Below are positions 25,062 to 31,149 of a DNA stretch of 64,000 nucleotides, in pieces; within the stretch, counting starts at the first letter, position 1; each line of letters opens with the position of its first letter. The position numbers were made by a program, and so were the translations under genes. The notes under the pieces were generated by a model. It was not told where the DNA came from. It searched no databases and was given only the letters and a program-made list of their open reading frames with translations. This DNA is from Rudaea cellulosilytica DSM 22992 (GTDB lineage Bacteria > Pseudomonadota > Gammaproteobacteria > Xanthomonadales > Rhodanobacteraceae): contig NZ_KB899241.1 of NCBI RefSeq assembly GCF_000378125.1, positions 2,021,652 to 2,085,651 of the forward strand. Direction: 5' to 3'.

Positions 25062-27653
25062 ATGCGAATGGACAAACTGACTTCGCGTTTCCAGCAAGCG
25101 CTCGCCGATGCGCAGAGCCTGGCGGTGGGGCGCGACAACAACATGCTCGAACCCGCGCATTTGATGGCAGCATTGCTCGATCAACAAAGCGGGTCGACCG
25201 TGCCGCTGCTCACCCAGGCTGGGGTCAACGTGCCCGTGCTGCGCCAGCGCGTGAACGAGGCGGTCGAGCGCCTGCCGCAAGTCCGCGGACAGGAAGGCAA
25301 CATCAACGTCTCCAACGAACTGACGCGCCTGCTCAATCTTACCGACAAGCTCGCACAGCAGCGTGGTGACGCCTTCATCGCGAGCGAGCTGTTCGTGCTT
25401 GCCGCGGTCGATGACAAGGGCGAGATCGGCCAGGCGCTGAAGGCCGCGGGTGCGACCAAACCGAAGCTCGAAGCGGCGATCGAGAAGATGCGTGGCGGCG
25501 AGAAGGTCGAAAGTGAAAATGCCGAAGATCAGCGCCAGGCGCTGGAGAAGTACACGATCGACCTGACCGCGCGCGCGGAGAAATCCAAACTCGATCCCGT
25601 CATAGGCCGGGATGAAGAAATCCGGCGCGTCATCCAGGTGCTGCAGCGGCGCACGAAAAACAATCCCGTGCTGATCGGCGAGCCCGGCGTCGGCAAAACC
25701 GCGATCGTCGAAGGCCTGGCCCAGCGCATCATCAACAACGAAGTGCCAGAAGGTCTGCGCGACCGCCGCGTGCTCTCGCTCGACATGGGCGCGCTGATCG
25801 CCGGCGCGAAGTTCCGCGGCGAGTTCGAAGAGCGCCTGAAAGCCGTGCTCAAGGATCTGGCCAAGGAAGAAGGTAACGTCATCCTATTCATCGACGAGCT
25901 GCACACGATGGTCGGCGCCGGCAAGGCTGAAGGCGCGATGGACGCGGGCAACATGCTCAAGCCTGCGCTTGCTCGCGGCGAGCTGCATTGCATCGGCGCG
26001 ACCACGCTCGACGAGTATCGCAAGTACATCGAAAAGGACGCGGCGCTCGAACGTCGCTTCCAGAAAGTGTTCGTCGGCGAACCTTCGGTCGAGGATACGA
26101 TCGCGATCTTGCGCGGCCTGAAGGAAAAGTACGCGCTGCATCACGGAGTCGAGATCACCGACCCGGCGATTGTCGCGGCGGCGACGTTGTCGAACCGCTA
26201 CATCTCGGACCGCCAGCTCCCCGACAAGGCGATCGACCTGATGGACGAGGCCGCCTCGCGTATCCGCATGGAGATTGACTCGAAGCCGGAAGAGCTCGAT
26301 CGTCTCGAGCGCCGCCTGATTCAGCTCAAGATCCAGCGCGAAGCGTTGAAGAAGGAGAAGGACAAGGAGTCGCAGCAGCGCCTCGCCGATCTCGAAACCG
26401 ACATCGCCAAACTCGAGCGCGAGTTTTCCGATTTGAACGAAGTCTGGAAGGCCGAGAAGGCCGCCGTGCAGGGCACGACCAAGATCAAGGAAGAGATCGA
26501 AGCCGCGCGCGCGGAACTCGAAGCCGCGCAGCGCAAGCAGGACCTCGCCAAGGTCGCCGAAATTCAGTACGGCAGAATTCCGCAACTGGAAAAGCAACTC
26601 GGCGCAGCGCAGGAAGCGGAGTCGAAAGGCTTCAAGCTGCTGCAGCAGAAAGTGACCGGCGAAGAGATCGCCGAAGTCGTGAGCCGCTGGACCGGCATCC
26701 CGGTTTCGAAGATGCTCGAAGGCGAGCGCGAGAAGCTGCTGCGCATGGAGGACATGCTGCATCAGCGCGTCATCGGTCAGGACGAGGCGGTGCGTGCAGT
26801 CGCGGATGCGATCCGGCGTTCACGCGCCGGCTTGTCCGATCCGCACCGGCCGAACGGCTCATTTCTGTTCCTAGGCCCGACCGGCGTCGGCAAGACCGAG
26901 CTGTGCAAGGCGCTCGCCGAGTTCCTGTTCGACTCGCCCGACGCGCTCGTGCGCATCGACATGAGCGAGTTCATGGAGAAGCACTCGGTCGCGCGCCTGA
27001 TCGGCGCACCCCCGGGCTACGTCGGCTATGAGGAGGGCGGTTATCTGACCGAAGCGGTGCGGCGCCGTCCGTACAGCGTGATCCTGCTCGACGAGGTCGA
27101 GAAGGCGCACCACGACGTGTTCAACATTTTGCTGCAGGTGCTCGACGATGGACGCCTGACCGACGGTCAGGGCCGCACGGTCGATTTCCGCAACACCGTC
27201 ATCGTGATGACGAGCAATCTCGGCTCACAGCTGATCCAGGAGATGGCCGGCGATACCGAGGAGGAATACACGAAGATGAAGGCTGCCGTGATGGGCGTCG
27301 TCCAAGCCCATTTCCGGCCGGAGTTCATCAACCGCCTCGACGAGATCGTCGTGTTCCGCCCGCTCGACAAGGCGCAGATCCGCCAGATCGCGCGCATCCA
27401 GACCGCGTATCTCGCCAAGCGTCTCGGCGAGCGTCAGCTGAACATGACGATCAGCGACAAGGCGCTCGACCTGCTCGGCAATGTCGGCTTCGATCCGGTG
27501 TTCGGCGCCCGCCCGCTCAAGCGCGCGATCCAGCAGCAGCTCGAGAATCCGTTGGCCAAGGAGATCCTCGAAGGCAAGTTCCAGCCGGGCGATACGGTGG
27601 CGGTCGATGCCGAGCATGGTCGGCTCGTGTTCGCGAGGAACAGGCAGGCGTGA
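25062..27653 (+). CDS. clpB: ATP-dependent disaggregase ClpB
   Basis: A 863-residue Hsp100 chaperone that rescues aggregated proteins with DnaK. Order: N-domain (~1-145), AAA-1 with Walker A GEPGVGKT (206-213), the coiled-coil M-domain (~410-525), AAA-2 with Walker [10 protein letters not shown] and sensor-2 GARPLKRAI. It lacks the ClpP-binding loop of ClpA/X, which fits ClpB. The 3' 187 bases from 27439 are repeated exactly at 30944-31130. The last residues here ([10 protein letters not shown]) differ from the other copy (RLMFAKK), so this copy's end may be recombinant. Confidence 0.96.
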
Positions 27654-27730
27654 TGGTGCGCGCTGCGAGGAATTCGAGAGTAAAGACCTGACGCCACGCG
27701 ACCCCGTCGCGTGGAACTGGAGGGCAGGGC

Positions 27731-28151
27731 ATGAAGGCGGATGTTTCGGTTGTCGCCGCCGCGAGCGCACCTGGCGTGCGCCTCGACGTATGGCTCTGGG
27801 CAGCGCGTTTCTTCAAGACGCGCGCGCTGGCAAATAAAGCGATTGAAGGCGGCAAGGTGGAATTGAACGAGGCCGCGGGCAAGCCGTCCAGGGCGGTGCA
27901 TGTCGGCGACCGGCTCCGCCGCTCGCGGCGAAGAACGCTTCGAGATCGAAGTCGTCGTGCTCGGCGATCAGCGCGGCCCAGTCGCGCTGGCGCAGTCGCT
28001 CTACCGCGAAACCGAGGCCAGCCGCAACGCGCGCGTGGAAGCAGCCGAACGTCGTCGCCTCGAACGCACGGGTTATGCGAAGCCACCGACCAAGCCCGAC
28101 AAGCGCGCGCGGCGCCTCATCATTGCGCTGGGCGATATTGATGCGATGTAG
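27731..28151 (+). pseudogene. hslR: Hsp15 (HslR) S4-domain RNA-binding protein, frameshifted
   Basis: The first frame encodes the S4 domain of Hsp15 (VRLDVWLWAARFFKTRALAN, then EGGKVELNEAAGKPSRAVHV and GDRL). At about 27915-27925 the family sequence continues only in the third frame (GEERFEIEVVVLGDQRGPVA ... RRLIIALGDIDAM, stop 28151). Removing one C from the CTCCGCCGCTCG stretch joins the two halves into a full-length ~139-residue Hsp15. In the family it binds free 50S subunits carrying nascent chains. This is either a real one-base frameshift or a sequencing error; the remaining sequence is well kept, so the event is recent if real. Confidence 0.82.
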
Positions 28152-28778
28152 GGCCGAGTTTCCCGAATCCTCAGGTTAGGCTTATCGACCAACTCGTGCG
28201 CTTTATGGAGACTCGAAATTCGAGGCCTGATCCTTGGCAATGATCAGGTCGCCTACGACCTCTGGCACGTCGAGCAACGCCCCAAGTCGATCGCACGCGA
28301 AGTGGAACCGGTCGAGATGCCTGCCGCTGCCTGAAGGTTGGTCTTGAAAGCAAACGTGATCCCGTTCGCCGCTCCCGTTCGCCCAGTTAGTCGTGCTTCG
28401 CTTGGCCTGCATCGATTTGGACCGACCTTCGTTCGCTTTCGGGCACTGGAAATCTTGATGAGCCTATCTGGACCGCCACAGCCGCCAGCGTCAGAAAAGG
28501 AAAAAAGTGACGGAGGAATTATTCGATTGAAACGGAAAATTCCTCCGTCACCTTTTCGTCTATACTTCTGGGCGCGGGCGATTTCGCCCGGTTTCTCGTG
28601 GCCGAGACGCCGCGCTGGCCCGAGGCGGTGAAGCAATCGGGGTCGAAGCTGGATTGAAAAACGGAGAGAGCCCGACTTCTGCTGATTTGATAGCAACCAG
28701 ACCAATATCCACGCCGACGCAACGGCAATTCTTCTTTCATCATTCGCGCCAGACCCCATCCACCGGGAGACTCACGCC
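28152..28778. other. Non-coding stretch between hslR and the hydrolase fragment
   Basis: No gene is recognised in these ~630 bases on either strand; short open frames have no family-like features. The stretch contains a long inverted repeat at 28507-28551 and a smaller palindrome CGGGCGATTTCGCCCG near 28575-28590. It looks like debris at the edge of the rearranged clpB-hslR region. A CCGGGAG ribosome site precedes 28779. Confidence 0.5.
28507..28551. repeat. 14-bp perfect inverted repeat / hairpin
   Basis: GTGACGGAGGAATT (28507-28520) and AATTCCTCCGTCAC (28538-28551) are exact reverse complements around a 17-base loop. An A-run precedes and CTTTTC follows, so it could act as a terminator in either direction or be the remnant of a small palindromic element. 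Confidence 0.7.
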
Positions 28779-28973
28779 ATGAACCCAGAATCTATCCTGC
28801 CGGGCGCCGAGCCCTTCCTGTTCGAGGGCAGTGACGTCGGCGTGCTGGTGTCGCACGGTTTCAGCGGCAGCACGCAGAGCATGCGCTTCATCGGTGAGCA
28901 GTTGCACACCCAAGGCGGCTACACGGTGCTGAGGCCGCGCCTGGCGGGGCACGGCGTGTCGCCCCATGCCTGA
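28779..28973 (+). pseudogene. Alpha/beta-hydrolase (carboxylesterase) N-terminal fragment
   Basis: A 64-residue fragment: GVLVSHGFSGSTQSMRFIGE is the beta-strand and oxyanion HGF(S/T)GS motif of Est30-like carboxylesterases, and TVLRPRLAGHGVSP is the next strand. The frame stops right after this, so the nucleophile Ser, Asp and His are all absent. The glycosyltransferase gene begins inside its last codons (28966). The family start and ribosome site are intact, so only the rest has been lost. Confidence 0.75.
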
Positions 28974-30609: not shown

Positions 30610-30631
30610 CATCCGGGCGGGAATTTTCATC

Positions 30632-30940
30632 TGAACTACCCCGATTTTTCGGACGGTTAATTAGACACCTGTGCCTTGGCAAAGTCTTCCGGCGAGCGAT
30701 AGCCCAAGGCACTGTGCGTTCGTTTACGGCAGAGCACCTCGATGTGGTCGAACACTACCGATCGAGCTGCATCGCGATCGGCGAACACCGCGAGGACAGC
30801 CGCTGGCTTGCCGGATGTCTTCAGAAGTCGCAGCGCTTCGCGCTTGAACTCCGCCGTGAACTTTTGTCGCTTCTCCATCGAACACTTCCGTATGAGGATT
30901 GTCCTCGCTTTGTGGTGTCCGAGAAATCAGGGGTGGTCCA
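30632..30940 (-). mobile_element. Internally deleted IS3-family element (309 bp)
   Basis: Ends are related inverted repeats: TGAACTACCCCGATTTTTCG at 30632 and, on the other strand from 30940, TGGACCACCCCTGATTTCTC; both continue GGAC. The minus strand from 30878 to 30657 encodes a fused remnant: [20 protein letters not shown] (start of OrfA) joined to [20 protein letters not shown] (end of OrfB with the RxHSALGY motif). About 900 bases of transposase including the DDE core are gone, so it cannot move itself. No target duplication is visible at the two ends, and the right end abuts the clpB fragment. Confidence 0.85.
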
Positions 30941-30943
30941 AGT

Positions 30944-31149
30944 TGAACATGACGATCAGCGACAAGGCGCTCGACCTGCTCGGCAATGTCGGCTTCGATC
31001 CGGTGTTCGGCGCCCGCCCGCTCAAGCGCGCGATCCAGCAGCAGCTCGAGAATCCGTTGGCCAAGGAGATCCTCGAAGGCAAGTTCCAGCCGGGCGATAC
31101 GGTGGCGGTCGATGCCGAGCATGGTCGGCTGATGTTCGCGAAAAAGTAG
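30944..31149 (+). pseudogene. Duplicated clpB 3' end
   Basis: Bases 30944-31130 are identical to 27439-27625 in clpB (187/187 by direct comparison), including synonymous positions. The frame encodes [20 protein letters not shown] onward to HGRLMFAKK, then TAG. The last codons differ from clpB. Without the rest of the AAA-2 domain it cannot function. The exact identity means a recent copy, or gene conversion between the copies. Confidence 0.92.

Follow-up and report, generated by a model that had tools for sequence, protein, structure and literature searches.

A duplicated clpB 3′ end brackets a patchwork of foreign and broken genes in Rudaea cellulosilytica, probably through insertion with duplication

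In the genome of Rudaea cellulosilytica DSM 22992, the 3′ end of clpB is present twice in direct orientation, and the DNA between the two copies is a patchwork of foreign and broken genes, closed on its right side by the tip of an IS3-family element. We consider it rather probable that this arrangement arose when a foreign, IS-ended segment integrated at the clpB end by insertion with duplication. The layout of such an event was found, i.e. direct repeats of resident sequence bracket the insert and the site is empty in relatives, and the IS tip constitutes one of the two junctions. These observations agree with the origin proposed in the earlier note, namely an insertion that restores its target gene, or an IS-linked recombination. 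The features are collected in Table 1, with positions given in the window, i.e. the whole 64-kb stretch of DNA that was analysed.

Table 1. Features of clpB, the insert and its junctions (positions in the window)
Feature	Position	Strand	Remarks
clpB	25062..27653	+	Open ORF, 863 aa; ClpB domains complete; native to about 27625, then a tail of apparently donor type, FARNRQA
Repeat copy 1	27439..27625	+	187 bp, within intact clpB
Copy-1 tail and first bases past the stop	27626..27669	+	Appears to resemble the clpB end of same-genus genome G004
Second hslR	27701..28157	+	Frameshifted by a 2-bp deletion against intact homologues, split over two frames
Antitoxin gene end	28245..28334	+	78% over 85 bp to G009; reading frame
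Hairpin repeat	28502..28556		27-nt arms; 89% copy in G010
Receptor gene end	28566..28657	+	DNA matches at 76–79%; protein ends agree
Alpha/beta hydrolase gene start	28779..28965	+	Cut at the start of the next gene; 79% DNA identity to an Acidovorax-titled locus
GT2 glycosyltransferase gene	28966..30609	+	Intact ORF, GC 73%, weak HD-like second half
IS3-family deletion derivative	30632..30940	−	309 bp, both inverted repeats kept
AGT between IS tip and clpB	30941..30943	+	Copy 1 has AGC
Repeat copy 2	30944..31130	+	187 bp, stranded and native end of clpB
Native clpB ending LMFAKK and stop	31131..31149	+	CadC interval follows, as in relatives

Direct-repeat comparison across the window yielded two families of at least 60 bp, namely the clpB-end repeat and a tandem at 7686–8203, the latter comprising two copies of 254 bp with 83% identity. 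The two clpB ends are identical over 187 bp with a start-to-start spacing of 3505, and both copies diverge immediately at either edge of this block; counted as a longer direct repeat (27436–27636 and 30941–31141), they share 201 nt with three mismatches, at 27438, 27626 and 27627. Base comparison therefore bears out the twin clpB 3′ ends with different terminal codons that had been described in the earlier note. When clpB was aligned with the clpB genes of six other members of the genus, two of these genes being partial, the longest identical run was 62 bp, and 187-bp blocks of the gene showed 77.5–94.7% identity. Since runs shared with relatives do not exceed 62 bp, the 187-bp identity reflects a duplication or a converted pair and not conservation.

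The insert was delimited by comparing the clpB-to-CadC interval with that of related genomes, which the earlier note had suggested as a check. In three members of the same genus (G002, G010 and G014) the interval is uninterrupted, with a single clpB end and the CadC interval directly after it, and relative to these three the present genome carries 3505 bp of extra DNA. In G010, window positions 25071–27636 and 30938–36871 align to one continuous stretch, which holds a single clpB end and is unbroken through the intergenic stretch. Because the downstream copy adjoins the CadC interval, and the relatives have one clpB end at that place, the second copy is the native one. The whole insert was unmatched in the 15 other same-genus genomes; with 18 candidates scored per genome, 14 of them matched part of 27626–30943, either as hslR or as pieces of at most 85 bp, and G012 gave no match. 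A single clpB end per genome was listed for 10 of these 15 genomes, with five candidates per genome scored, a depth at which an extra short copy could be missed; no clpB match was found in G005, G006, G009 and G013, several of the 15 genomes being incomplete, and a 77-bp match to the clpB tail in G015 was rejected as a short copy because it stops at a contig end. The 3′ flank of clpB also varies within the genus: in G004, G007 and G012, clpB is followed by 56–1291 bp and then by sequence matching 39.5–42 kb of the window, and the CadC-to-TonB-receptor block (31500–39500 of the window) is missing after clpB.

Beyond the identical block the two copies end differently, with the KK after FA in the native ending replaced by RNRQA in copy 1, and the M before FA replaced by V. 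The earlier note had considered FAKK a possible ancestral C-terminus of ClpB, and the comparison strengthens this view: the copy with this ending joins the conserved CadC interval, FAKK is also found in G002, G014 and G012, and G010 ends in FTKR, so that FAKK is, as judged from these sequences, very likely ancestral in the present genome. The clpB tail is variable within the genus, FAKK occurring in 3 of the 10 members in which the clpB end was seen, and G001, G003, G004 (FARQKSV), G007, G008 and G011 having endings that are neither FAKK nor FTKR. The FARNRQA tail of copy 1 appears to resemble the end of clpB in G004, a different lineage of the genus, with which 31 of 44 bases agree in an ungapped alignment, compared with a maximum of 24 at 20,000 random window positions. 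G004 was picked for this comparison after inspection of six clpB ends, and with the first 11 bases left out the agreement is 20 of 33, against 19 at the best random placement. Another source was considered for the same tail, i.e. an antisense scrap of a gene that we take to be prlC, to which a 37-bp piece matched at 86–89% in the same genome and in two relatives. This match scored 41.9 bits, which is near chance in a 4.3-Mb genome (the top score among 300 reversed 125-mers of the window, run against 192 kb, was 40.1 bits), while none of the 20,000 placements attained the agreement seen with the clpB end of G004; the prlC source was therefore dropped, although not disproved. With its exchanged tail, clpB remains open and its C-terminal domain complete, and the rebuilt gene presumably works.

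Inside the insert, the frameshifted hslR, the truncated hydrolase and the foreign-looking glycosyltransferase gene listed in the earlier note were all recovered, with the hslR lesion now specified and the hydrolase reduced to its gene start. The second hslR is 87% identical to that of G010 and 88% identical to an intact hslR present elsewhere in the same genome (contig C4). A donor's native clpB-hslR neighbourhood was rejected as the source, hslR lying away from clpB in the relatives where both were located (contexts of five inspected). The antitoxin gene end is presumably of a HigA-like family. The receptor gene end, which we take to be of the Bug/TctC type, is where 10 of the 12 best places match when 399 genomes from the family of the Acidovorax-titled G428 are compared. 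For the hydrolase start, DNA identity peaks with the Acidovorax-titled locus (79%) and a Paracidovorax locus (77%), with a Mesorhizobium-titled MAG (76%) next. Both the receptor and the hydrolase scraps thus seem, at the DNA level, to resemble Burkholderiaceae. As a sharp marker of origin the hydrolase was rejected, its protein identity being 64–72% across several groups (Burkholderiales, Rhizobiaceae-titled and Anaerolineae-titled loci and a Bacillus; at least 68 loci), and its Acidovorax DNA match is a hint only.

The GT2 gene differs from clpB in its GC content (73% versus 63%), and its second half is HD-like with an E-value of 7e-4, below the Pfam cut-off. Matches to it were present in 43 of 369 genomes of the class (its own included), the best having 33% identity over residues 6–274, and one 55-residue piece among these genomes was 61% identical to the protein. 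This piece comes from G304, where the surrounding ORF is a different one (L045, 1474–1700), and is perhaps another scrap of the same glycosyltransferase family; in G092, matches to the GT2 half and to the HD-like half lie about 1 kb apart. No close relative of the ORF with both halves was found, no relatives of the gene were confirmed in a first contig scan, and none were found on plasmids. One of seven hydrolase-bearing genomes gave a match, at 28% identity, and the matches listed inside the gene from the 399 genomes of the G428 family were short. For the stretches 27670–27700, 28158–28244, 28335–28501 and 30610–30631, the comparisons gave no clear origin.

The right end of the insert had been described in the earlier note as an IS3 remnant whose end touches the second clpB copy. 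The contact stands, since the element ends at 30940 and clpB follows from 30941; the description of the remnant needs amending, both ends of the element being kept and its middle lost. Its two ends are 76% and 85% identical to those of a 1241-bp IS3 element from a Xanthomonas plasmid (CP137537.1), of which it retains roughly 114 bases at the start and 118 at the end. Like IS3-family elements such as this one, it still shows its two inverted repeats and the two ends of a transposase; unlike the reference, which has matching GTC flanks, it is internally deleted and its flanks differ (ATC/AGT). Its short ORF joins a transposase helix-turn-helix-like start to an integrase-core-like end, both below the Pfam cut-offs, and the NCBIfam IS3 model matched with an E-value of 2.3e-4, below the model cut-off. 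With the middle deleted there is no complete transposase, nor do the flanks form a target duplication, and with this mismatch it is not a simple IS insertion. Homology to clpB starts with the base adjoining the right tip of the element, where copy 1 has AGC TGAACATG and this junction reads AGT TGAACATG. TGAAC opens the identical 187-bp block, and the left tip of the element reads TGAACTACCCC. An IS tip followed at 3-bp spacing by five bases matching the left tip has a chance of about 1/1000 for one fixed site, and a higher one if other spacings or the other tip are allowed.

In the insertion with duplication that we favour, the incoming segment was probably a patchwork before its arrival. At the left junction, an incoming clpB end would have recombined homologously with the resident gene, rebuilding clpB to end in FARNRQA; that the resident clpB runs into what looks like the clpB tail of another lineage points to homologous recombination. 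At the right junction, the incoming DNA may have been closed into a circle at the IS tip and integrated by a single crossover, or a transposase may have joined the IS tip to clpB at a look-alike of the element's own tip; either route would give the present structure, and the two are not separated. What counts against this explanation is that the 187 bp are identical between the copies, though the copy-1 tail and the hslR copy look 10–30% diverged, and so any model with two lineages needs a donor of the same species, gene conversion at a later time, or a crossover placed right where the identity stops. No donor molecule for the insert was found, the four stretches listed above are of no clear origin, and a build-up of the segment over several steps is also conceivable. 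It is conceivable, if doubtful, that an IS3-family element used the five-base left-tip look-alike in clpB as a surrogate partner, with homology repairing the other side with the donor tail; the junction of IS tip, 3 bp and clpB would then have carried several kb of neighbouring DNA, by transposition at one end and homologous repair at the other.

Both routes can be set beside known systems. In the E. coli experiments on homology-facilitated illegitimate recombination, Amarir-Bouhram and colleagues obtained a PCR product diagnostic of partial duplication of the homologous end in 56 of 60 clones, and duplications of 109–950 bp in 14 sequenced clones, which were explained by a single crossover of a shortened circle (PMC3240628). 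As in those duplications, foreign DNA at clpB is bracketed by a partial duplication of a homologous gene end, its 187 bp falling within the range described there; unlike in those experiments, the clpB patchwork arose in nature, one of its junctions lies at an IS, and the circle is hypothetical. For IS30 and IS911, IR-targeted transposition has been described (PMC9333248). The clpB junction resembles it in having an IS tip, a short spacer and then sequence starting like the element's left tip (TGAAC), but differs in that the resemblance covers five bases only, the remnant is without a complete transposase, and transposition is hypothetical here.

Next best after insertion with duplication is the rescue of an IS-interrupted clpB by a double crossover, which we regard as fairly unlikely. 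An IS3 copy would first have cut the resident clpB at codons 792–793. A donor segment that included an unbroken clpB end, foreign DNA and another copy of the IS would then have crossed over with the resident DNA twice, through clpB at the left and through the IS at the right, so that the former 3′ half of the gene was stranded beyond the IS. The direct resumption of clpB after the IS tip with the 3-bp AGT is what one side of an IS3 insertion looks like, and the mismatched flanks fit recombination between two IS copies; however, copy 1 would then stem entirely from the donor, although the two copies are identical, and the scoring of 40 of 51 candidates in the genome revealed no further copy of the IS. 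Short exact repeats flanking a patchwork of several sources, with an hslR frameshift that could be a sequencing error, might also come from an assembly artefact or a mixture of two strains. Such an origin, misassembly included, is unlikely: the window is an internal part of a 2.25-Mb contig in a genome of 4.34 Mb and 6 contigs, for which completeness is rated at 99.99% and contamination at 0%, the inner junctions are abrupt with no long repeat in common, and one molecule carrying the tail-hslR junction as well as the IS-clpB junction would be required anyway.

That several broken pieces of different origin lie in the insert would suit an old duplication of the clpB end that gathered scraps step by step and was kept identical by gene conversion, but no intermediate arrangement was found among the genus members seen with clpB, and we hold this to be quite improbable. 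A restored gene whose 3′ end is directly repeated is likewise what a site-specific integrative element using the clpB 3′ end as its attachment site would leave; this is scarcely credible here, since no site-specific integrase or recombinase was found among the scanned insert ORFs of at least 60 aa, and the IS3 remnant is the sole mobile-element signal.

Taken together, the clpB case appears to be a tidy but unexceptional scar, of a known kind, left by gene transfer and a mobile element. It provides a well-delimited example of a core gene taking in mixed foreign DNA without breaking, in which clpB gains a new tail and the stranded old end persists as a marker, and with junctions this exact the route of entry can be tested in a single strain. 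A caution also follows, in that a short second clpB end met elsewhere may be misread as a paralogue; here it is a scar, not a paralogue.
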